Part shown: one piece after another, positions 31,084-64,000 of the stretch | Layout: each line of letters starts with the position of its first letter | How positions within the stretch are numbered: the first letter of the stretch is position 1 | Assembly (NCBI GenBank): GCA_947453205.1 | Contig: CANGFT010000001.1 | Span: forward strand, 124,001-188,000 | DNA length: 64,000 nt | Origin: Beijerinckiaceae bacterium | GTDB lineage: Bacteria > Pseudomonadota > Alphaproteobacteria > Rhizobiales > Beijerinckiaceae | Direction of reading: 5' to 3' | Program-made: the position numbers and the translations under genes | Notes under the pieces: model-generated | The model's database searches: none | The model's input: only the letters and a program-made list of their open reading frames with translations | Told to the model about the DNA's origin: nothing

Positions 31084-31308
31084 ATGGCCAATGACAACGA
31101 TAGATCATCTTTGTCAGGATTGACAGAGGCGGAAGCAAAGGAGTTCCACGCGGTATTCGTGACCAGCTTTATCGGCTTCACGGTGATCGCGATCATCGCC
31201 CACTTCCTTGTTTGGAGCTGGCGTCCGTGGATTCCTGGTCCCAAGGGCTACGCCCTGCTCGATGGCGTCGGCAGCGCCATTCAGAGCGTCCTGCCAATGA
31301 TCAGCTGA
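31084..31308 (+). CDS. pufB: light-harvesting 1 beta chain
   Basis: 74 residues from MANDNDRSS with an excellent GGAGGTC site 7 nt upstream. [20 protein letters not shown], then a membrane helix with [11 protein letters not shown]; His40 is the bacteriochlorophyll ligand and His22 sits 18 residues earlier as in all beta chains. The tail after RPW is 26 residues ([13 protein letters not shown]...), unusually long for LH1 beta, most of which end near this point. Directly before pufA (10-nt gap). Confidence 0.95.
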
Positions 31309-31318
31309 GGAGCGCGCG

Positions 31319-31513
31319 ATGTACAAACTCTGGTTACTTTTCGATCCCCGGCGGGCGCTCGTGGCGCTCTTCTCGTTCCTCTTCGTTCTGGCGCTGACGA
31401 TCCATTTCGTGCTGCTCAGCACGGATCGGTTCAACTGGCTCGAAGGCGCCAAGCCCAAGACCAGCGAGATCCATCAGGCGATCCCGGGACTGCAACCTCA
31501 ATCATTCGCTTAA
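31319..31513 (+). CDS. pufA: light-harvesting 1 alpha chain
   Basis: 64 residues: [33 protein letters not shown] with bacteriochlorophyll ligand His29, and Trp40 at +11 after that His (STDRFNW), which normally hydrogen-bonds the LH1 bacteriochlorophyll. Ribosome site GAGGAG just upstream. Co-transcribed with pufB; followed by two strong hairpins before pufL, which probably explain the excess of LH1 over reaction centre. Confidence 0.95.
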
Positions 31514-34653: not shown

Positions 34654-35553
34654 TCAGTGTGCTTCGCCTTGCATCAGCAAGAGCTTTTTGGCGAGGATCA
34701 CGGCGGCGGAAGCGTCATCGGCAAGACTGTCTGCGCCGACCTGAACCGCCCTTTCAGGATGACCTGTGAAGGCTGGTCCACCCACCATGACCGCGATCTG
34801 CCGGTTGCGCGAGACGCGCCGAATCTCGGTGATGCTTTGGCCCATATCTTCGAGGCCTGCATCGGCGCTGAGCGCGATCCCGACGACGCCGTACCAGTCG
34901 CTGGATACGGCGGCTGCGATTTCCCTGGCGCTCGGGGCCTTGCGGATCGTCACATCCCAGCCGGCGCCACGCATGAGTTTGCCCAGCATGTCGACGCCAA
35001 ACACATGCTGTTCGCCGGGCGCCGTAGCCAGCAGAACACGATGGCGAGGGTCTATGGCCGGACTGTCATCGGCGGCGCCATAGATCATCAGGAGTTCCTG
35101 CAACCGGGCGACGCCGATGGTGACGTCAAGGAAATCGCAGGAGTCGTCGATCCAGTTCTGGCCAAGGTGGCGGGCGGTCGGGGCCAGCAAATGGACAAAA
35201 AGCGTTTCGATCGAATGGCCGCGGGTGCACATATCGTCGAAAAAGGCGCGGGCCCCGAGATTGTCCGCCGCGACGGTCAAGGCGCCGAATTCAGCGATTT
35301 CCTGCGCGGTGAACGAACCGGGACCAAGGTCCGGGCGGCGAGTCGCCTCGTGAACGAGCAGAAGCCTCGGCAGGATTTGATCGGCGATGACGCCCTCAAG
35401 GCGACCCCGACCCTGGCGATGTTGCTGGCGATGAGCCGCCTCTCGGCCCCCCGACCGCATCGCCTGGGGGTCCGCACCCACAACGGAGGCAAACGAAGCG
35501 CGCTTCCCGCTCTCTCTTCTCATCGCCACCCCCACAGCAGCAGAAGACGTCAT
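34654..35553 (-). CDS. AerR/PpaA-type B12-binding antirepressor (copy 1)
   Basis: About 299 residues if started at MTSSAAVG (35553); the frame is open up to 35754, but that part has atypical codon use. Helical region VIADQILPRLLLVHEATRR, a B12-cap-like middle (FVHLLAPTARHLGQNWIDDSCDFLDVTIG), then a Rossmann B12 domain with APGEQHVFGVDMLG, where the His is the expected corrinoid ligand. AerR-type proteins relieve PpsR/CrtJ repression when carrying light-sensitive adenosylcobalamin. Start uncertain. A second paralogue lies at 44288-45247. Confidence 0.8.
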   Translation of the reverse strand: MTSSAAVGVAMRRESGKRASFASVVGADPQAMRSGGREAAHRQQHRQGRGRLEGVIADQILPRLLLVHEATRRPDLGPGSFTAQEIAEFGALTVAADNLGARAFFDDMCTRGHSIETLFVHLLAPTARHLGQNWIDDSCDFLDVTIGVARLQELLMIYGAADDSPAIDPRHRVLLATAPGEQHVFGVDMLGKLMRGAGWDVTIRKAPSAREIAAAVSSDWYGVVGIALSADAGLEDMGQSITEIRRVSRNRQIAVMVGGPAFTGHPERAVQVGADSLADDASAAVILAKKLLLMQGEAH

Positions 35554-35752
35554 TTTGGCCTGATTCAGGCCGGACTCCCCGCGTGCAAAGCCGATAGAAC
35601 CCCAGAAAAGAGACGCAGTAAAGCCAGATTGACGATTTTTCATTTGGCGCTTTAGGATGGTCCGCTTGCGCCGGTCGATGAAATTCGGGTTCTTTTTCCG
35701 CAGATTCTGGCTGCGGACCACGGCGACTGGAGCGCGGGAAAGCCCGTAGATC

Positions 35753-37264
35753 ATGAAAAAATATCATTTTATCATTATCTTATGTGCGGTGGCCTCGGTG
35801 CTCGGCGGTTTGTGGCCGTTGCTTGGGGATCGCAAGGATCTGACCATCGAGAACGTTTCGGTGGGCGGCGTTCCCGCCACTATTTTTCGAAACCTGGGAG
35901 GGGATAACGGGCCCGTGGCCCTGATCGCCCATGGATTCGCAGGCTCGCAACAGCTCATGCAGCCCATGGCCATGACCCTCGCCCATAGCGGATACACGGC
36001 CATCACCTTTGATTTCGCCGGCCATGGGCGTAACGAGCGGCCCATGCGCGGGGGTGTCCGCGACATCGGCGAGAGCACGCGAACGCTGCTTTCCGAGATC
36101 GACGAGATGGTCGGCTTCGCCCGAGGACTGGCGAGGGGCAGGCCGATTGCGCTGGTGGGCCATTCCATGGCGGCGGACCTCATCACGCAATATGCGATGA
36201 ACCGGCCGGAGATCGGCGCGGTCGCGGCGCTTTCGGTCTTCGGCGCCGGGATCACGGCCAGCGAACCGCGCAACCTCCTCGTCGTCACCGGCGCCTGGGA
36301 GCCATCCATGTTGACGGAGGCTGCGGCCCGCATTGCGGGCCTTGCGGCTGGTGGAAGCGCCGCAGAGCGCGTCACCTACGGCGATTTCGCCGCAGGAACA
36401 GCCCGGCGCTATGTGCTGGCGCGGGGCGCGGAGCATATCGGCGTCCTCTACAGCCGCGATGCGCTCAGCGAGACGCGTGACTGGTTGAACAGCGCCTTTG
36501 GACAAAAAGGGCAGGGCGCCATCGACAGCCGGGGCCTCTGGTTGGCGCTTCTATTTGGCGGACTGCTCGCTCTGGCGGCGCCGCTCGCCATGCGGTTTCC
36601 GAGTCTGTCGGCGCAGCCCCTTGGCGCGGGTCTTGGCTGGGGAAAGCTGGCGCCGGCCGCCATTGCGCCTGCGGTTCTGACGCCGCTTATCCTATGGAAG
36701 GCGCCGACGGATTTTCTGCCGATCCTTCTTGGCGATTATCTCGCCTGTCACTTCGTGATCTATGGATTGCTGAGCGCGGGCGGGCTCTGGCTCATGGGCT
36801 GGCGCCCATCAAAGGGGGGCGCGCTGAGGTGGCGCCGGGTGCTGATCCCGAGCCTCCTGCTCGCAGCCTATTATATCCTTGGCCTCGGCCTCGCGCTCGA
36901 CGCCTTCATCACATCCTTCATGCCGAGCGGCGAGAGGTGGATCATCATGGCGCCCATGCTGCTCGCCACCAGTCTTTATTTTTGCTGGGATGAATGGATG
37001 ACGCGGGGTGCGGGCGCAGCGCGTGGCGGCTATGTCTTCTCGAAGGTCTGCTTTCTCGCGTCCTTGCTTTTCGCCGTCGGGCTCAATCCTGAGAAGCTTT
37101 TCTTCCTCATCATCATTGTGCCCGTGATCTTCCTTTTCTTCATCGTCTACGGCCTTGTCAGCCGATGGGCCTATGCGCGCACAGGCGATCCGCGCGTGGC
37201 GGCGCTGGGAAATGCGGCGTCGCTGGCCTGGGCCATCGCCGTCACTTTTCCCATCGTCAGCTGA
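35753..37264 (+). CDS. alpha/beta hydrolase fused to a multi-pass membrane domain
   Basis: 503 residues. N-terminal signal-anchor helix (FIIILCAVASVLGGLWPLL), then a hydrolase domain with IAHGFAGS, nucleophile GHSMA (about residue 140) and a late His in GAEHIGVL (about residue 226). From residue ~260 there are about eight hydrophobic helices and no recognised motif. Lies between the AerR-like regulator (divergent, the two starts overlap by 2 nt if both are taken at the extreme ATG) and dxs (tail to tail). Function unknown; a lipid or pigment esterase is only a guess. Confidence 0.7.
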   Translation: MKKYHFIIILCAVASVLGGLWPLLGDRKDLTIENVSVGGVPATIFRNLGGDNGPVALIAHGFAGSQQLMQPMAMTLAHSGYTAITFDFAGHGRNERPMRGGVRDIGESTRTLLSEIDEMVGFARGLARGRPIALVGHSMAADLITQYAMNRPEIGAVAALSVFGAGITASEPRNLLVVTGAWEPSMLTEAAARIAGLAAGGSAAERVTYGDFAAGTARRYVLARGAEHIGVLYSRDALSETRDWLNSAFGQKGQGAIDSRGLWLALLFGGLLALAAPLAMRFPSLSAQPLGAGLGWGKLAPAAIAPAVLTPLILWKAPTDFLPILLGDYLACHFVIYGLLSAGGLWLMGWRPSKGGALRWRRVLIPSLLLAAYYILGLGLALDAFITSFMPSGERWIIMAPMLLATSLYFCWDEWMTRGAGAARGGYVFSKVCFLASLLFAVGLNPEKLFFLIIIVPVIFLFFIVYGLVSRWAYARTGDPRVAALGNAASLAWAIAVTFPIVS

Positions 37265-41283: not shown

Positions 41284-42669
41284 TTAAGTTCCCGCTGCGA
41301 TCGGGCTGGTTTTTCTCGTCATGTCGGCGCTGAGGCCGGATGATGCGTTATGGTTGGTCAGGCGTCCGGCCAGAACGGCGGAGGCGAGGAACAGAAGGGC
41401 CTCGGCGATGAATACGCTGGCATAGGCGAGGCTGGGCTCGGACAGGACATGGCGCGCAACATCGACCGCCGCCGTTCCAAGAAAGCCGCCGACGCCGAAG
41501 GCGATGGCCTGCGCGGCGCCCCAAAGGCCCATGCGGGTGCCTTCGCGCGAGGCGGCGCCCGCGCCCGCCAGAGCCATCATGGAGCCGATGGCCGAGACCG
41601 CGAATGCGCCATTGGAGACGCCCAGCGCAAAGATCACCGCCCGCAGCGGATAGTCAGGCCCCATGAAGGGACCGGCGGCCAGTGCGGCGAGGGACAGGGC
41701 GGAGGCGACGCATCCGCCGACCGTCCAGGCGCCGAGCGTTCCGACGCCCGCGATGGAGGCGAGAAAGGCGACCGACAACATGCCGATCAGGACGCCGCCA
41801 TGCTGCACGCCAGCAAGCTTCGTCGTCGTGCCCGGCGTCATGGAGAAGACGAGGCCAGCATAGGGCTCGATGATCAATTCCTGCGCGCTGTAGGCGAGCA
41901 TGGAGACGAAGATGAAGATGGTGAAGCGGCGCGCGGCAGGTTCGTTCCAGATCTGTCCGATGGCCTCGCGGAAGGGCGGTTTTTCACGCCGCGCCGCATG
42001 GCTGCGGGAGGCTGAGGCCGCGATATGCGCCACCCTGTCTTCGACGCCCCGGACGGCGAGGCACGAAAGGCTGAAGGCGATGGCGCAGACGCCGCCGGTC
42101 ACGAGGATCAGGCGCTCGTTTGTGAAGGGATCGAGGAAATGGCCGGCGAGAGGCGCCGTGATGGCGAAGCCGAAGATCATCATGACCCAGACGATGGTCG
42201 CCGCCGCAGCGCGCCGTCTTGGGACCACACAGCTCGCCAGCATGGTCAGGACCGAAGTGCCCGCTGCGCCGACCCCAAGGCCGATGAGAAGAAAGGCGAA
42301 AACCGCCAGCGCCATGCCCGCGAGCAGGTGAGCCGACATCCAGGCGGTGGCGACGGCGGCCCCAAAGCCGCCCAGCGCCAGAAGGCCCATGCCGCCGATG
42401 ATCCAGGGCGTGCGGCGCCCGCCTATGTCGGCGCGGTAGCCCCATGCGGGCCGCAGGATCTGCACGGCGTGGTGCAAAGCCATCAACAGGCCAGGCACGA
42501 TGGCGGGAAGCAGGAGTTCGACGATCATCACGCGGTTGATGGTGGAGGTCATCATGACCACGATGGCGCCGAGGCAGGTCTGCACGAGTCCGAGGCGCAC
42601 GATGCCCAGCCATCCAAGAGAGGCTGGTTCTGGCGTTTCCATAGGGTCTGTCAGGGCTGCGCTTTCCAT
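41284..42669 (-). CDS. PucC/BCD-family membrane protein (orf428-type)
   Basis: 461 residues, 12 membrane helices, MFS fold. FVQTCLGAI-type start (GLVQTCLGAIVVMMTSTINRVMIVELLLPAIVPG) and RPAWGYRADIGGRRTPWII match the bacteriochlorophyll-delivery family. In Rhodobacter its homologue orf428 lies by bchP. ATG 42669 lacks a visible ribosome site and is 15 nt from a PpsR palindrome; ATG 42642 is an alternative start. It heads a transcript with bchP, tspO, a small orf and dxs. Confidence 0.88.
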   Translation of the reverse strand: MESAALTDPMETPEPASLGWLGIVRLGLVQTCLGAIVVMMTSTINRVMIVELLLPAIVPGLLMALHHAVQILRPAWGYRADIGGRRTPWIIGGMGLLALGGFGAAVATAWMSAHLLAGMALAVFAFLLIGLGVGAAGTSVLTMLASCVVPRRRAAAATIVWVMMIFGFAITAPLAGHFLDPFTNERLILVTGGVCAIAFSLSCLAVRGVEDRVAHIAASASRSHAARREKPPFREAIGQIWNEPAARRFTIFIFVSMLAYSAQELIIEPYAGLVFSMTPGTTTKLAGVQHGGVLIGMLSVAFLASIAGVGTLGAWTVGGCVASALSLAALAAGPFMGPDYPLRAVIFALGVSNGAFAVSAIGSMMALAGAGAASREGTRMGLWGAAQAIAFGVGGFLGTAAVDVARHVLSEPSLAYASVFIAEALLFLASAVLAGRLTNHNASSGLSADMTRKTSPIAAGT

Positions 42670-42752: not shown

Positions 42753-44210
42753 CTAATTGGGCTTGCCATCCCCCGAGCCGCCGCTCTCCTCCTGCTCCTC
42801 CTGATCAAGGTCGCCAAGACCATAGCGCCGCAGTTTGGCGTAGAGGCCCTGGCGGCTCAGGCCCAGCATGTCGGCGGCTGAGGCGCGGTTGTCGCGCGTC
42901 AGTTCGAGCGCGGCCTCGATGCAGAGCCGCTCGATCAGGTCCGTGGTCTCGCGCACCAGGCTTTTCAGCGGCACGCGCCCCACCAGATCCGTGAATTGCT
43001 CGACGGTGCGGGGCAGTTCGCGCCCGCCGAGCCGGTCCTTGCCCACGCGCCAACCGCTGCTGCGGATCGTGAAGCCAAGGCTCGGCCGCTCGCCCCCGGG
43101 GATCGAGACGGCGGTGATTTCGACATCTTCCGTCGCGCCAAACTCACCGCGCAGGGTGGTCGAGAAATGGCGGACGAAGCCATTGGTCCGCAGATTGGCG
43201 AAGAGAACGTCGATATCCATGCCGGACCGGCCGAGCCAACGATCCAGAGGCTGGCCCCTTGTCTGCTCTTCGTTCGCCGCCTGCACGAGGTCCACAAAGG
43301 CGGAATTGGCGGTCAGGACGCGGCGGTCCGTGTCGGTGACGAGGAATGCGTCGGGCATCTTTTCAATGATGCGCAGGAGATTGGCCTTTTCGCCCGCCAC
43401 CGGGCCGCCCCCACCCACGCGCGAGAGCAGCACGAGCAACTGGTTTTCATTCTCCTGACGAAACAGGGAGCCGGACAGCAGGACCGCGTCCTTGTCGCCG
43501 TTCAGCAGAACGTGAACGTTATCGACGCGTGGCGCGACCCGCAGCGCAGCGACGAAGGACAGGGCGGCCTGACGGCTGTTTTTTTCGAAAAGCTCCGAGA
43601 AGACGGCGCCCACGACCCTGCGGGTGTCGGATTTACGTCCCTCCTGGCCCAGAAGGGCGAGGGCGGCGGGATTCGCCTCAAGAACTCTCTGCTGCTCGGC
43701 GTCGACGATCAGAACCGCCTCCGCCGCAAGCTGGAAGAGCATGCGATAGCGCTTTTCGGAATCGCGGATGCGGGCATATTCCCGCTCCATGGCTTGCTGC
43801 GCCTCGACTAGCCTTTGCTGGAGCGTCGCCATGGCGCGCTGGTCGCGGCCGACCGCCACGATTCGCCGGTCTTTGTTGGTGCGCACGACGCTATAGCGGA
43901 TGGGGACGTCTGGTCCGGTGGGCGAGGGATGGTTCACCTGGCGCCAGCGCGATGGGCGGCGCTCGGCCGCCTCGCGCAGCAGATCCTCAATTTTCGGACG
44001 GCTTTCCACGGTGACGGTCTCGGTCCAGCGGCGGCCGATCCAGTTGCTATAGGCGTCCCGCGCGAGATCCTCGCTTCCAAAGGAGACGTCGACAATGACG
44101 CCATCGCTGTCGAGGACGATGGCGACATCGGCGGAAGAGGAGATCAAGGCGGCGGCGGTCTCGGGGTCCATGGACCCAAGACTCTCCTGCGGCTTGTTGA
44201 AGCGCATCAT
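42753..44210 (-). CDS. ppsR: PpsR/CrtJ photosynthesis gene repressor
   Basis: 485 residues from MMRFNKPQESLGSMDPETAAALI, the form of the start I recall for Rhodopseudomonas PpsR; the frame extends 9 codons to a TTG. Three PAS-like segments (residues ~15-120, ~155-260, ~285-400), a coiled helix (QRLVEAQQAMEREYARIRDSEKR), and a C-terminal Fis-like HTH LGLSRQGLYAKLRRYGL. The only cysteine in the protein is Cys430 in ERLCIEAAL within the HTH. It is predicted to bind the TGT-N12-ACA boxes listed here. Lies 77 nt downstream of an AerR-like gene. Confidence 0.93.
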   Translation of the reverse strand: MMRFNKPQESLGSMDPETAAALISSSADVAIVLDSDGVIVDVSFGSEDLARDAYSNWIGRRWTETVTVESRPKIEDLLREAAERRPSRWRQVNHPSPTGPDVPIRYSVVRTNKDRRIVAVGRDQRAMATLQQRLVEAQQAMEREYARIRDSEKRYRMLFQLAAEAVLIVDAEQQRVLEANPAALALLGQEGRKSDTRRVVGAVFSELFEKNSRQAALSFVAALRVAPRVDNVHVLLNGDKDAVLLSGSLFRQENENQLLVLLSRVGGGGPVAGEKANLLRIIEKMPDAFLVTDTDRRVLTANSAFVDLVQAANEEQTRGQPLDRWLGRSGMDIDVLFANLRTNGFVRHFSTTLRGEFGATEDVEITAVSIPGGERPSLGFTIRSSGWRVGKDRLGGRELPRTVEQFTDLVGRVPLKSLVRETTDLIERLCIEAALELTRDNRASAADMLGLSRQGLYAKLRRYGLGDLDQEEQEESGGSGDGKPN

Positions 44211-44287
44211 CGTCGAAGGTTTGACTGCCTCAACCAACCCTTATCTCCGTGTCCCCTGGGGATCCGCGATTCCATATTTCCGTGTGA

Positions 44288-45247
44288 TTACACAATGACA
44301 TTCCGATCGGGCAAGCGTTCCGCCCAAAGCACAGCTGAAGGGGCGTCCTCAGCCATCGCGTCGGCGCCGACCGCCTTCACCAGTCCGGGATCGTCGAGAA
44401 AGACTGGCCCGCCCACCAGAATGCGCAGCTTTGGATTCGCAGACTGCCTGCGCGCCGTTGCAATCGCGTTCTTTAGCCATTCAAGGTTGCGGTCCATGCT
44501 CAGGGAGAAGCCGGCCACATCGAACCAGCCCGTTTTCAGATCATCCAGAAACGCCTTTTCGGCGGCGCGCATGACGTCCCATCGCGCATCCTGGAAAAAC
44601 TTTTCGACGATTGCGGCTCCAAAGACATGGGATTCGCCGGGCGCTGGAACCAGAAGGATGCGCTTGCCCGAGCTTGCTGTCCCCGCGACGCTCGCCCGTT
44701 CAGGGCGCAAAAGCCTGAGAATGCGGTGCAATATCTGCACGCCCACCGTGACTTCCATCAGGTCGCAACTGTCTTCATCCCACATGGCGCCGAGGCGGCG
44801 GGCGGCGGGGGTCAGAAGGTCAAGGCAGATGCTTTCACCCGAGGCCCCCTCGGCCTGGAGCCTTGCGACATAGGCCAAGGCGTCCTCTGCGTCTGTTTTC
44901 AATAAAAGATCAACAAATTCATCCAGCCGCTCTTTGAGGGCAGGGGCACGGAAGGTTGCGGGGGGCGTCGCAGGGGGTGTTGCAGGGGCGCCGGCATGTG
45001 CCGGTGGACGGTGCGCGCGCCCCGAGGAGTGCGGCGCGAGGGAGGCCAGCAGCCGGGGCACGACCTCCGCCTGTATCGCATATTCAAGCCTGGCTTTCCA
45101 GGGATCAGGGCGGTTCAGGGTGGTCCGCGACCCCCGCCCTCGTTCGTCAGATCTCGAATCGTCCGAGCGTGAGGGGGCGCTGAGATGATGCTCCCGCGTC
45201 GATCCCTGCGCATCCGAACTGTCGGAGATATGGTCGAATTCTTCCAC
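44288..45247 (-). CDS. aerR: AerR/PpaA-type B12-binding antirepressor (copy 2)
   Basis: 319 residues from a GTG with a strong GGAGGGG site 7 nt upstream. The N-terminus is Ser/Arg-rich with a WKARLEYAIQAEVVPRLLASL helix and a Pro/Ala linker (residues ~75-100). Middle AARRLGAMWDEDSCDLMEVTVGVQ and the B12 Rossmann domain VPAPGESHVFGAAIVEKFF with the ligand His. It sits next to ppsR and divergent to bchF, the usual place for aerR/ppaA in the cluster. Upstream promoter region holds two imperfect PpsR boxes. Confidence 0.88.
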   Translation of the reverse strand: MEEFDHISDSSDAQGSTREHHLSAPSRSDDSRSDERGRGSRTTLNRPDPWKARLEYAIQAEVVPRLLASLAPHSSGRAHRPPAHAGAPATPPATPPATFRAPALKERLDEFVDLLLKTDAEDALAYVARLQAEGASGESICLDLLTPAARRLGAMWDEDSCDLMEVTVGVQILHRILRLLRPERASVAGTASSGKRILLVPAPGESHVFGAAIVEKFFQDARWDVMRAAEKAFLDDLKTGWFDVAGFSLSMDRNLEWLKNAIATARRQSANPKLRILVGGPVFLDDPGLVKAVGADAMAEDAPSAVLWAERLPDRNVIV

Positions 45248-53500: not shown

Positions 53501-54201
53501 TGACCACCGCCACACGCGACACCCGCCGCAGCGAGCTGGAGCACTACTTCGACCGCACCGCCGTCGAAGCCTGGAAGCGGCTGACCTCGGAAGCGCCCGT
53601 GGGCCGCATCCGCGCCCAGGTGCGCGCGGGCCGCGACACGATGCGCGACACGCTGCTCTCGTGGCTGCCGCAGGACATGCGGGGCATGCGCCTTCTGGAT
53701 GCGGGCTGCGGCACCGGCGCGCTGGCGGTGGAGGCTGCGCGGCGCGGCGCCGATGTGCTGGCCATCGACATCTCGCAATCGCTGGTGGACATGGCGCGCG
53801 AGCGGGCGCCGAAGGATCTGGGCGCAGGCAGCATCACCTTCGCCGTCGGCGATATGCTCGACGCCTCGCTGGGAACCTTCGACCATGTGGTCGCCATGGA
53901 TTCGCTGATCCATTATGTGGGCGAGGACATCGCGCAGACCCTTTCGGGACTGGCGCAGCGCACGCGTGGCTCCATGGTCTTCACCGTGGCGCCCCGCACG
54001 CCTGCCTTGATGCTGCTATGGGTCGTGGGCCGGGCCTTCCCGCGCAGCGACCGGGCGCCGGCCATCGAGCCCATCGCCCAGGACTCCCTTGAGCGTGAAA
54101 TGCGCAAGCTGCCGACGCTGGACGGCTGGAGCATCCATCGCAGCCACAGGGTGTCCCGCAGTTTCTACATCTCAGAAGCGCTGGAGGTGAAGCGGTCATG
54201 A
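53500..54201 (+). CDS. bchM: Mg-protoporphyrin IX O-methyltransferase
   Basis: 233 residues. SAM-binding motif LLDAGCGTGALAVEAARRGADVLAIDIS (residues ~66-93), Asp-rich post-I motif, and AVDSLIHYVGED-like MDSLIHYVGEDI. It methylates the C13 propionate of Mg-protoporphyrin IX, giving the substrate of AcsF. Its start overlaps the bchL stop and its stop overlaps the lhaA start (ATGA). Confidence 0.95.
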
Positions 54202-55649
54202 ATCGCGCCAGCGCAGCCATGATCCGGGGACTGATGCGTTTCGGTCCCGGCCTTCTGCCCTTCGCGGACGCCGCGACGGCGGAATTGCCCATGGGTCGGC
54301 TGCTGCGCCTGTCGCTGTTTCAGATGACCGTGGGCATGGCTGCCGTTCTGCTGATCGGCACGCTGAACCGGGTGATGATCGTCGAGCTCAACGTGCCCTC
54401 GTGGATCGTGGCGATCATGCTGTCGCTGCCCCTGCTTTTTGCCCCCTTCCGCGCGCTGGTGGGCTTCCGCTCGGATAACCATCGGTCCTTCCTTGGCTGG
54501 CGCCGCGTGCCCTACATCTGGCTTGGCACCATGCTGCAATTTGGCGGCCTCGCCATCATGCCCTTCGCCCTGCTGATCCTGTCCGGCGACACCACCGGGC
54601 CGCTCTTTGTGGGCCATGTGGCGGCGGCCCTCGCCTTTCTGCTCGTCGGAGCGGGATTGCATACGGTGCAGACGGTGGGCCTCGCCCTCGCCACCGACCT
54701 TGCGCCAGAACATGCGCGCCCGCGCGTCGTCGCACTGCTGTGCGCCATGCTGCTGCTGGGCATGGCCGTGAGCGCGCTTGTGTTTGGCCTCGCGCTCTCC
54801 AGCTTCACCCAGATCCGCCTCATTCAGGTGGTGCAGGGCTCTGCGGTCGTGACCATCGTGCTCAACGGGATCGCCCTGTGGAAGCAGGAGCCCCGGTCCG
54901 CCCTGATCGCGCCCGGCGGCGCCAGCGCGCCTTTTAGAAACGCATGGGCGTCGTTCGCGAAGGTCGGCCGCACGCGTCGGCGCCTCTTCGCGACGGGCCT
55001 TGGAACGGCGGCTTTCAGCATGCAGGACATTCTGCTTGAGCCCTATGGCGGCAAGATCCTGCATCTGCCCGTCGCTGCGACCACCGCCATGACGGCGATG
55101 CTGGCGGTCGGCGGGGGCATAGGCCTCGTCTTGGCCGCACGCTGGCTCACCAGGGGCGCTGACGCCCACCGGGTCGCCGCAATCGGAGCTGTGATCGGCG
55201 TCATCGCCTTCGCGGCCGTGATCCTGTCCGCCCCCATGGAGGCGGCGGCTCTCTTCGCGCTCGGCGTCACCTTGATCGGCCTTGGCGCCGGCATGTTCGC
55301 CCATGGAACTTTGACCGCCACCATGAGCCTCGCCCAGCCTCAGGACAGGGGTCTGGCGCTGGGCGCATGGGGGGCCGCGCAGGCGACCGCCGCAGGCGTG
55401 GCGATCGGCCTCAGCGGCGCGATCAACGATCTGAGCGCCGCCATCGCCGCGTCCGGCGCGCTGGGCGAGGCGCTGGTCAGCCCCGCAACCGGTTATGCAA
55501 TCGTCTACGCCATCGAGATTGTTCTCTTGCTGGCGACCGTGGTGGCCATCGGTCCGCTCGTCCGCTCGCCTCGTGCGACGCAGGATGGACTGACCGACAG
55601 CTTCAATCTTCTTTCCTCCAACGGATTATCATCGGGAGGCGTCAGGTGA
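54198..55649 (+). CDS. lhaA: LH1 assembly protein LhaA (PucC/BCD family)
   Basis: 483 residues, 12 membrane helices. MNRASAAMIRGL, PFADAATAELPMGRLLRLSLFQMTVGMA, LNRVMIVELNVP and GFRSDNHRSFLGWRRVPYIW, with QDILLEPYGGKIL. It is required for LH1 assembly, perhaps as a bacteriochlorophyll carrier. Its position between bchM and puhA is the standard one. The first 104 residues are very similar to the pucC start at 63688, pointing to a fairly recent paralogy. The stop shares one base with the puhA ATG. Confidence 0.93.
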   Translation: MNRASAAMIRGLMRFGPGLLPFADAATAELPMGRLLRLSLFQMTVGMAAVLLIGTLNRVMIVELNVPSWIVAIMLSLPLLFAPFRALVGFRSDNHRSFLGWRRVPYIWLGTMLQFGGLAIMPFALLILSGDTTGPLFVGHVAAALAFLLVGAGLHTVQTVGLALATDLAPEHARPRVVALLCAMLLLGMAVSALVFGLALSSFTQIRLIQVVQGSAVVTIVLNGIALWKQEPRSALIAPGGASAPFRNAWASFAKVGRTRRRLFATGLGTAAFSMQDILLEPYGGKILHLPVAATTAMTAMLAVGGGIGLVLAARWLTRGADAHRVAAIGAVIGVIAFAAVILSAPMEAAALFALGVTLIGLGAGMFAHGTLTATMSLAQPQDRGLALGAWGAAQATAAGVAIGLSGAINDLSAAIAASGALGEALVSPATGYAIVYAIEIVLLLATVVAIGPLVRSPRATQDGLTDSFNLLSSNGLSSGGVR

Positions 55650-57571: not shown

Positions 57572-57873
57572 ACATGCTCGGGCTCATCAGGCGGCAGGAA
57601 TTTGAGGTTCCATGCACGCTCACCATCGAACATTCCGCCGACAGCCTTCACGCCCATGTCGACATTGACGCCGATCTCGACATTCGGCCGGGCGATGAAG
57701 TTCTTGTCCATGACGCCCCGACCGACATCGTCTTTGGCGAGCGTCTGGTGGTGACGCGCATGGCCACGGTCATCCGCGCCAGCGCCATCGAGCGGCTCTG
57801 GACGAAATTCGCCGGTCATTTCGAGATGACCGAACTCTATGAAGTCAGCTTCACCGAGAGGAGGATCCTGTGA
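57568..57873 (+). CDS. conserved small protein of the puh operon (unnamed)
   Basis: 101 residues, soluble. Alternating beta pattern [40 protein letters not shown], then [20 protein letters not shown], an all-beta domain with a PGDEVLVHD turn like that of SH3 or KOW folds, and a C-terminal helix. It sits between puhC and acsF in the same overlapping chain (4-nt overlap on both sides). Homologues in this position occur in other proteobacterial clusters as far as I recall, without assigned function. Confidence 0.75.
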
Positions 57874-58934
57874 ACGCTCCCCTACGCCACGGCATTTCCG
57901 CCGACTCCACACGGGTCGCCCAGGAAAACACGATGTTGAGCCCGCGGTTCTACACGACCGATTTCGAGGAGCTCGATCGGACGGACGTCAGCGCGGTGCG
58001 CGCGCAATGGGACGAGCTGATCGCGGAGCTGAAGTCGGATCCCAACAAGCGCCATTTTGTGCGCAACGAGGAGTTCGACGCGGATTTCTCAAACCTGCCG
58101 CCCGAACTCGACAAGGAGTTCCGCGACTTCCTCATCAGCTCGATCACCGCTGAGTTTTCGGGCTGCGTGCTCTATGCGGAGATGCGCAAGCGCGCGAAGA
58201 ATCCCGATATGCGTGATCTCTTCGGGCTTATGAGCCGCGATGAGGCGCGCCATGCCGGCTTCATCAACGACACGCTGAAGGATTTTGGCATCGGCATTGA
58301 TCTGGGCTTTCTGACCAAGGCGAAGAAATACACCTTCTTCAAGCCCAAGTTCATCTTCTACGCCACCTATCTGTCGGAGAAGATCGGCTATGCCCGCTAC
58401 ATCATGATCTATCGTCACCTCGAGCGTCATCCCGACCGGCGCTTTCACCCGATCTTCAAGTGGTTCGAAAAATGGTGCAATGACGAGTTCCGCCACGGCG
58501 AGGCCTTTGCGCTGCTGATGCGCGCCAACCCGAAGCTGACCTCTGGCGTCAATGTCTACTGGATCAAGTTCTTCCTGCTGGCGGTCTACGCCACCATGTA
58601 TGTGCGCGATCATTTCCGTCCGGCCTTCCACAAGGCCATCGGCGTGGACCCCTCCGAATATGATTTCGATGTGTTCCGCATCTGCTCGGCGATCTCGCGC
58701 CAGACCTTCCCGCTGACGCTGGACATCGACAACCCGAAATTCAAGGAGGGGCTGGACCGCCTGGTGCGCATCGCCGATGCGACGGCTGCGGCCAAGGAGC
58801 AGGGCGGTCTGATCGGCGGCGTGAAGAAGCTGCTGTGCAATGCGGATGCAGCAATCACTTTCGCGCGGCTCTATTTCCTGCCCAGCCAGCCCAACGAAAT
58901 GCCAGCCGACATTCGCATGGCGCCGGTCTGGTAA
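57870..58934 (+). CDS. acsF: Mg-protoporphyrin IX monomethyl ester (oxidative) cyclase
   Basis: 354 residues from GTG with GAGAGGAGG upstream. Di-iron ferritin-like fold: [13 protein letters not shown] (first E), [10 protein letters not shown] (E-x-x-H), and a second [13 protein letters not shown] (E-x-x-H), providing the iron ligands. It builds the isocyclic ring using O2. Presence inside the operon implies bacteriochlorophyll synthesis under at least microaerobic conditions. bchE, the anaerobic cyclase, is not in this window. Confidence 0.95.
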
Positions 58935-62966: not shown

Positions 62967-63026
62967 TGTCAAAGTTTGTTGACAAAGTGAGTTGTGCGAA
63001 TAGGATTACAGTGTCGTAATACGACA
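62967..63026 (+). promoter_or_regulatory. pucB promoter with PpsR box and an extra palindrome
   Basis: TGTCAAAGTTTGTTGACA (62967-62984) is an exact TGTCA-N8-TGACA PpsR box. Its right arm holds TTGACA (62979-62984), 16 nt before TAGGAT (63001-63006), a likely promoter. Immediately downstream lies a 15-nt near-perfect palindrome TGTCGTAATACGACA (63012-63026), not of PpsR type and located near the transcription start. The leader to pucB is then about 120 nt. Confidence 0.7.
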
Positions 63027-63130: not shown

Positions 63131-63286
63131 ATGGCAGACGATCCAAACCGAGTTTGGCCGACGGGACTCACCGCCGGGGAATCTGAGGAACTGCATAAGC
63201 ATCTGATCGATGGCACCCGTGTCTTCGGGGCTATCGCGCTGTTCGCGCATTTCCTCGCCTATGTTTATTCACCCTGGCTTCACTGA
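63131..63286 (+). CDS. pucB: light-harvesting 2 beta chain
   Basis: 51 residues: [38 protein letters not shown]-type layout, ending [13 protein letters not shown]. His40 is the B850/B820-type bacteriochlorophyll ligand and His22 is 18 residues earlier, as in beta chains. Perfect AAGGAGGT site seven nt before the ATG. The gene is too short to stand out in long-frame searches. It is followed by pucA after 11 nt. Confidence 0.95.
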
Positions 63287-63297
63287 GGGAGACCGAC

Positions 63298-63519
63298 ATG
63301 AACCAAGGCAGACTCTGGACAGTGGTCAAGCCCTCCGTTGGGCTCCCGTTGTTTATCGGCGCGGTCGCAGTGACCTCGCTGACCATCCACTTCGCGGTCC
63401 TGACCCACACGACCTGGTTCCCGGCATTCATGCAGGGTGGCCAGAAGAAGGTCGCGATCGAAACCCAGACCACCGCTCCGGCGGTTCTGGCGCTGAACGA
63501 CGCTACGACGGTCAAGTAA
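63298..63519 (+). CDS. pucA: light-harvesting 2 alpha chain (Phe44-Met45 type)
   Basis: 73 residues. It aligns without gaps over the first 48 residues with Rhodoblastus acidophilus LH2 alpha ([30 protein letters not shown]). His31 binds the ring bacteriochlorophyll. Positions 44-45 are Phe-Met where B800-850 chains have Tyr-Trp, predicting loss of both hydrogen bonds to the acetyl groups. The C-terminus is ~20 residues longer than the acidophilus chain (ending ...ALNDATTVK). GGGAGA lies upstream. Confidence 0.93.
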
Positions 63520-63570: not shown

Positions 63571-63687
63571 GTCCAAAAGAGCCAAACGTCCAAACACCCG
63601 ATCTCGCGAAGGGCGTCGCCCCTGCGGGTGGTCAGGGGAGGTGCAGACTTCCTGGTGAATTTGGCGGCGAAAGGACTGGCCTGCACC

Positions 63688-64000
63688 ATGAATCGTTTCA
63701 GTCAGAAACTGATGCAGACTTGGGCGGGGCTTGGGCCCCGCTTTCTTCCTTTCGCCGACGTGGCCACCGCAGAACTCCCCCTTGGACGGCTCCTGCGTCT
63801 GTCGCTTTTTCAGGTCACGGTCGGCATGGCGCTCGTGTTGCTCGTCGGCACGCTCAACCGCGTCATGATCGTCGAGCTGGATGTGCCCGCCTCGATCGTG
63901 GGCGTGATGATTTCCCTGCCGCTGATCTTCGCGCCCTTCCGCGCGATCATCGGCTTTCGTTCGGACACGCATCAGTCGGTTCTGGGCTGGCGGCGCGTGC
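63688..64000 (+). CDS. pucC: LH2 assembly protein PucC, N-terminal part (runs off window)
   Basis: 104 codons visible to the right edge. MNRFSQKLMQTW, PFADVATAELPLGRLLRLSLF, VGTLNRVMIVELDVP, and GFRSDTHQSVLGWRR are PucC/LhaA-family signatures. Residue-by-residue it is close to LhaA of this window (54198), far closer than either is to the third paralogue at 41284. It belongs to the pucBAC operon and should deliver bacteriochlorophyll for LH2. Start ATG 63688. Confidence 0.92.
   Translation, partial: MNRFSQKLMQTWAGLGPRFLPFADVATAELPLGRLLRLSLFQVTVGMALVLLVGTLNRVMIVELDVPASIVGVMISLPLIFAPFRAIIGFRSDTHQSVLGWRRV

Follow-up and report, generated by a model that had tools for sequence, protein, structure and literature searches.

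A predicted blue-shifted LH2-type ring as the only peripheral antenna found in a Beijerinckiaceae genome, and a repeat protein encoded near puc

The puc locus of this Beijerinckiaceae bacterium raises the question of which light its peripheral antenna absorbs and under what conditions that antenna is made. A first-pass annotation of the whole 64,000-nucleotide stretch of DNA analysed here (the window) had proposed that an LH2 alpha chain with Phe44-Met45 in place of Tyr44-Trp45 makes a B800-820 or B800-only complex for low light. The gene order was pucB, pucA, pucC on the plus strand, with all three genes intact in the genome. The LH2 beta chain of 51 residues encoded by pucB (63131..63286; Pfam LHC, E 5.7e-9) keeps His22, Arg30 and His40, and its nearest solved chains are 7zdi_B, which is also in 7ze8 (E 3.3e-29), and the PucD chain 7ze3_B (E 8.7e-27). 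The alpha chain of 73 residues encoded by pucA (63298..63519, ATG to TAA; Pfam LHC, E 1.2e-11) carries Thr26, Ser27, His31, Phe41, Phe44 and Met45. The LH2 assembly gene pucC (PF03209, E 8.6e-150) starts at a GTG at 63628 or an ATG at 63688 and ends at 65091, beyond the window, which holds its 5' part (63628..64000). Because a recognisable pucBA pair is followed by pucC, the observation made in pucA is not one of chance.

We compared the two chains with solved LH2, LH3 and LH4 chains. It was confirmed that codons TTC (63427-63429) and ATG (63430-63432), together 63427..63432 on the plus strand, place Phe44-Met45 where the B800-850 alpha chain of Rhodoblastus acidophilus (1kzu_A) has Tyr-Trp. 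The alignment to that chain is gapless over residues 1-53 (E 1.3e-19), which extends the residue 48 given earlier, and the pairs given for the other antenna types were correct, with Phe44-Leu45 in LH3 (1ijd_A) and Phe44-Met45 in PucD (7ze3_A). The attributes of an LH2 pair were all found, namely the LHC domain, the pigment ligands alpha His31 and beta His40, the B800-site residues alpha Met1, beta His22 and beta Arg30, and a linked pucC. At the positions of the C3-acetyl donors (Tyr44 and Trp45, or Tyr41 in LH3) stand Phe44, Met45 and Phe41, so the alpha chain lacks the Tyr44 with Trp45 or Tyr45 of a standard B800-850 antenna. Classical LH3, in which the 1ijd structure has a single C3 bond from Tyr41, was ruled out by Phe41. 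The beta chain was likewise ruled out as the source of the missing bonds: its C-terminal 13 residues match PucD and B850 forms exactly, and it would thus neither replace the lost bonds nor account for a shift. In the cryo-EM structure of PucD-LH2 described in PMC9618040, no hydrogen bond to the ring pigments is seen and the peak lies at 803 nm.

In the same account the position of the ring band follows from how many C3-acetyl bonds there are: two give ~850 nm, one ~825 nm and none ~803 nm (PMC9618040). With Phe, Phe and Met at positions 41, 44 and 45, the C3-acetyl groups would be expected to rotate out of plane, which would raise the site energies of the ring pigments and lead to absorption at ~803-826 nm. 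Such a ring would feed LH1 across a wide energy gap, slowing back-transfer. Alpha Ser27 (codon 63376..63378, plus strand) also bears on the position of the band. In Rba. sphaeroides the equivalent Ser bonds the C13 keto group of a B850 pigment (PMC8775250), and changing Tyr44-Tyr45 to Phe-Leu there, with the Ser27 bond still present, is reported to give B800-826 (PMC9618040, PMC8775250). By the Rhodopseudomonas residue rule in Table 2 of PMC5069747, LH3 has F44 with M45 or F45 and LH4 has M26-F44-M45; Thr26 in place of Met26 therefore makes the present chain LH3, under a rule that its authors doubt for some cases, two strains with 'LH3' genes having given no clear 820 nm peak. Since the alpha chain offers no C3 donor, the beta C-terminus is shared with PucD and B850 forms, the residue rule points to LH3, and Ser27 accompanies the 826 nm band of the Rba. 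sphaeroides mutant, we expect the ring band at ~803-826 nm and not at ~850 nm. The blue-shifted antenna proposed earlier is thus well supported by the residues, and its 'B800-820 or B800-only' wording named the right range.

Within that range, it was considered whether the complex might be a true LH4-type, with no bond that matters left and a ring band merged with B800 into one peak at ~803-806 nm. The Phe44-Met45 pair is that of PucD, with its 803 nm peak and bond-free ring pigments, and PMC12654162 reports F44-L45 for aerobic phototrophs that show one band near 806 nm. The signature Met26 is replaced by Thr, however, Ser27 stands where PucD has Val27, and the Phe-Leu mutant of Rba. sphaeroides that keeps Ser27 remains at 826 nm. 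We regard the single-peak form as a serious possibility that falls somewhat short of an even chance. The lack of the LH4-signature Met26 and the presence of Ser27 lead us to give a slight preference to a two-band, LH3-like spectrum (B800 with ~815-826 nm) over one band at about 803-806 nm. In the PDB chain search, the two top-scoring solved alpha chains carry the label B800-820, and the best of them, 9dwz_A, has Phe44-Gln45, so similar sequences may differ in behaviour. A missing bond could also come from other residues, a different ring size or a further subunit.

We further assessed Ser27 across the LH2 genomes of the survey described below. Ser27 occurred in 39/39 genomes in which every LH2 alpha chain found by these searches has Phe44 with Phe, Leu, Met, Ile or Val at 45, compared with 8 of the 18 two-donor genomes (only Tyr44-Trp45 or Tyr44-Tyr45), the other 10 having Ala27 (Fisher test; p 1e-6, a value that ignores shared ancestry and concerns an association spotted in the same data before counting). 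Counted per genus, where one genus may fall in several groups, the figures were 26/26 with Ser among no-donor genera versus 7 Ser and 8 Ala among two-donor genera. Ten genomes were left out of the count: the intermediate G060, G602, G1337 and G1426, and the six mixed-type genomes G110, G181, G139, G208, G472 and G536, all with Ala27. Phe44-Met45 together with Ser27 represents a natural form of an experiment wished for in PMC9618040, the effect of the Ser27 bond when both C3 bonds are gone, and that effect should be readable from a single spectrum.

The genome was then examined for other antennas. An LHC-family search of the whole genome (rated 100% complete, 109 contigs) returned four matches, pufB, pufA, pucB and pucA, and no second pucBA pair, with Tyr-Trp or otherwise, was found in this search, although such a pair may have been collapsed or left unassembled in the 109-contig assembly. 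The LH1 genes pufBA (31129..31441, plus strand; matched stretches C1:155129-155233 and 155319-155441) are the only other LHC pair. With no other LH2 pair found, pucBA is not an alternative to a Tyr-Trp, B850-forming antenna. The window also encodes AcsF, the oxygen-dependent cyclase that marks aerobic bacteriochlorophyll synthesis (57870..58934, plus strand; TIGR02029, E 1.1e-146), while BchE, a PHY domain (phytochrome) and the RuBisCO large chain were not found in the genome searches. Two more PucC-family proteins (PF03209) were noted in the photosynthesis cluster, at 41284-42669 (minus strand) and 54198-55649 (plus strand).

The region upstream of pucB holds two TGT-N12-ACA consensus matches (62967-62984 and 62993-63010, plus strand; 62967..63010) that we take to be PpsR-type sites. 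The plain TGT-N12-ACA form occurs 13 times in the 64 kb against ~16 expected at equal base frequencies, which is about chance, so only the TGTC-N10-GACA form, with 3 occurrences in the window, carries weight; the site at 62967-62984 fits this form as well and includes TTGACA. A 15-base palindrome, TGTCGTAATACGACA (63012..63026), lies between these sites and pucB. The regulator gene ppsR is encoded at 42753..44237 on the minus strand (TIGR02040, E 2.5e-141). Two proteins with a B12-binding domain (PF02310) are encoded on the same strand at 34654-35754 and 44288-45247, the latter adjoining ppsR, and presumably resemble corrinoid antirepressors.

These findings bear on the proposal that the antenna serves low light, as one LH2 form among several that is switched on in dim light. 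In Rps. palustris, the transcript of pucAd (Met26-Phe44-Met45) is reported to be far higher at low light, and a mutant with pucBAd only forms LH2 only at low light (PMC5069747, PMC5783997). The present genome, however, yielded neither a second pucBA nor a PHY domain for a bacteriophytochrome, and PMC12654162 describes several aerobic anoxygenic phototrophs in which a blue-shifted antenna is constitutive and the exclusive one. We therefore find the 'for low light' claim unsupported as a switch and consider such a role very unlikely. The antenna would probably be produced whenever the photosynthesis genes are on, under PpsR control in an aerobic host, and the genome fits an aerobic anoxygenic phototroph with a blue-shifted sole peripheral antenna, a situation already known. 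We think it probable that pucBA encodes the only peripheral antenna of this organism, an LH2-type ring shifted to ~803-826 nm and likely controlled by PpsR with no low-light switching.

To place this antenna among its relatives, LH2 alpha chains were surveyed in 67 genomes, each counted at first encounter. These comprised 22/397 genomes of a family sample, G016, 23 further genomes of 397 at the order level, 11 further of 385 at the class level, G1166 (the sole addition from three extra small-group samples) and 9 further of 398 at the phylum level. The nearest named relatives by pucA were MAGs labelled Beijerinckiaceae, Rhizobiales and 'Rhizobium sp. Q54'. From the residues, 39/67 of these genomes are predicted to have a blue-shifted LH2 and no other. 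This suggests that what has been presumed a low-light device is, in many relatives, the usual antenna. It was noted that the 44-45 pair varies within the genus, with Phe-Met in the present genome and G409, Phe-Met with Tyr41 in G016, Phe-Phe in G327, Phe-Leu in G312 and G158, and Tyr-Trp in G010. In g49, taken as Rhodoblastus, 4/5 genomes combine Tyr-Trp chains with Phe-Met, Phe-Leu, Tyr-Met or Tyr-Phe chains, and the fifth, G257, has one Tyr-Trp chain. The classical LH3 pattern of Tyr41 with Phe44 and Met45 or Leu45 was observed in L081 (G016) and L049 (G178), near relatives having Phe41, and such close relatives probably differ in peak position. LHC matches were found in only 6/25 same-genus genomes of one sample (the present genome included, several being incomplete), and in G001 and G021 the sole pair was LH1; phototrophy and LH2 seem unevenly spread across the genus. 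A tblastn search of plasmid records with two pucA queries and the repeat protein introduced below gave no match, in a collection that may hold no puc genes whatever.

The variation of the pair within the genus (FM, FF, FL, YW) beside a conserved flanking motif could also be read as neutral drift in an antenna that an aerobic organism seldom uses, in which case the blue shift would have no selective value. Set against this are the intact pucB, pucA and pucC of the present genome and the 39 sole no-donor genomes, in which Phe44 is followed only by F, L, M, I or V and Ser27 is always kept. We consider drift an unlikely explanation.

An ORF of 311 residues was identified 658 bases past pucC on the same plus strand, 1.75 kb beyond the window end (C1:189750-190685, which is L037:2751-3686, or 65750-66685 in extended window numbering). 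The next ORF, on the opposite strand, is chlorophyll-synthase-like as named by eye. Residues 116-307 of this repeat protein form twelve exact 16-residue units with no insertion, such as RPFSEFFRMPELTSIA. Pfam gave no match for it and two relatives, nor did NCBIfam for it and three relatives (best sub-threshold E 0.091), and neither PHROGs, searched with the protein itself, nor a profile search of PDB sequences gave an informative match. The AlphaFold2 model of a close relative, L024, built from six sequences, has a folded N-terminal domain (blocks with pLDDT 61-92) and leaves the repeats unfolded (30-38). A Foldseek search with this model gave CutA1 as the best match (E 0.035) and none at E <= 0.001, so the modelled N-terminal domain is at most ferredoxin-like. 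The dN/dS ratio was 0.19-0.24 against three relatives, a fourth comparison being saturated. No description of the family was found in the open-licence literature (titles, abstract starts and passages).

We assessed the distribution of this family near puc by phmmer with the repeat protein, followed by an N-terminal-domain profile built from 38 matches. Relatives (E < 1e-9) were found within ~3.3 kb of pucA in 60/67 LH2 genomes. The profile was applied to wide flanks of the 28 genomes that were blank in narrow flanks, of which 21/28 then matched, and two weak rows were dropped (a 68-residue ORF in G139, E 0.0005). The matching ORFs begin no more than ~2.9 kb from pucA, the exception being a second copy in L176, at 3.3 kb. 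They are found immediately behind pucA, behind pucC, in divergent orientation to pucA or, in G875, convergent with it. Relatives near puc were absent in G430, G472, G536 and G585 (one genus), G904 and G1372, and G181 had none in the part of its puc surroundings covered (~1-15 kb each). Among 13 named puc loci, a relative was present in six (L024-L029), and none was found within the examined flanks of the other 7/13 (L030-L036; Rbl. acidophilus, Rhodopila, Rps. infernalis). The puf surroundings of four LH1-only genomes held no relative (39.5 kb in G001; 20 kb each in G021, G028 and G037), which is a weak control because only these surroundings were searched. The divergent relatives in L176 and L179 have units of ~23-24 residues by eye, such as MANFPIPLISRRKP, and L176 has two tandem copies.

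We compared the family with the gamma chain of Rps. palustris LH2, which PMC9618040 describes as a ribbon whose six repeats each bind a pigment by way of a Ser. The repeat period of gamma is 16 residues, as in the repeat-protein family. When gamma was placed on a ten-member column profile of the family (the present protein included), one register of 16 scored positive (25.2; others <= -44.8), and 0.7% of 20,000 column permutations reached that score (p 0.007). This register aligns Gly with Gly and Pro with Pro, and it places the pigment-binding Ser of gamma (YSG) at a column where the family mostly has Phe, Leu, Trp or Tyr, with a Ser three columns earlier in 79/120 units. The family thus weakly resembles gamma; it is plausible that the repeat protein works like gamma, and its being a gamma is not established.

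It was therefore considered whether the repeat protein is a third LH2 component, an extended gamma-like ribbon round the ring with a folded N-terminal domain. The twelve insertion-free repeats, the presence of a relative near pucA in most LH2 genomes, the dN/dS of ~0.2, the shared period with its single positive register, and the lack of predicted folding of the repeats when the protein is modelled alone are all consistent with such a role. The mismatch at the pigment-binding Ser column argues against it, as do the plain similarity to gamma, which was not significant (phmmer E 0.86, and gamma was unlisted in the PDB profile search), the 7/67 genomes with no relative near puc, and the report that gamma is restricted to Rhodopseudomonas and absent from Rba. 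sphaeroides LH2 (PMC9618040). A relative (L180) is also present in a strain of Rhodoblastus acidophilus. Given L180, it counts further against a third component that, to our knowledge, the solved LH2 of that species has no such chain. On balance, we view the third-component role as possible, though we would not yet favor it. More tentatively, LH2 in much of the Alphaproteobacteria may have an overlooked third protein encoded within ~3 kb of pucA, with a ferredoxin-like N-terminal domain and a ring-wrapping ribbon of 16-residue repeats, of which the Rhodopseudomonas gamma would be a stripped-down form; the twelve repeats here might then be long enough to surround the nine subunits of a ring that no longer has its band at 850 nm. 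If true, part of one of the best-studied membrane complexes would have been missed outside Rhodopseudomonas.

Several known systems resemble this locus in part. A small protein, PucE, copurifies with LH2 in Rba. capsulatus. The PucD and PucE proteins of the Rhodobacter pucBACDE cluster (PMC9231093) are like the repeat protein in their location after pucC, a likeness of position. Gamma RPA1495 (7zcu chain S) shares the 16-residue period and the in-register Gly and Pro, and its gene number is near the pucBA pair RPA1491-1492 (PMC5069747), as the repeat protein is near pucA; gamma is a 97-residue chain of six repeats, whereas the present protein has twelve and a folded N-terminal domain, with the Ser of gamma out of register. 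LH3 (B800-820) of Rhodoblastus acidophilus 7050 (1ijd) likewise has no donor at 44 and 45 but retains one C3 bond through Tyr41, where the present chain has Phe. PucD-LH2 of Rhodopseudomonas palustris (7ze3), an LH4-type complex, shares Phe44-Met45 and the last 13 beta residues; it differs in Met26-Val27 versus Thr26-Ser27, and in being one of several LH2 types and induced at low light, whereas the present pucBA is the only LH2 found. The exclusive LH4-like antenna of Roseobacter denitrificans and others is similar in being the sole peripheral antenna, blue-shifted and in an aerobic host, with a reported motif of Phe44-Leu45, the sole basis of comparison, versus Phe44-Met45 here.
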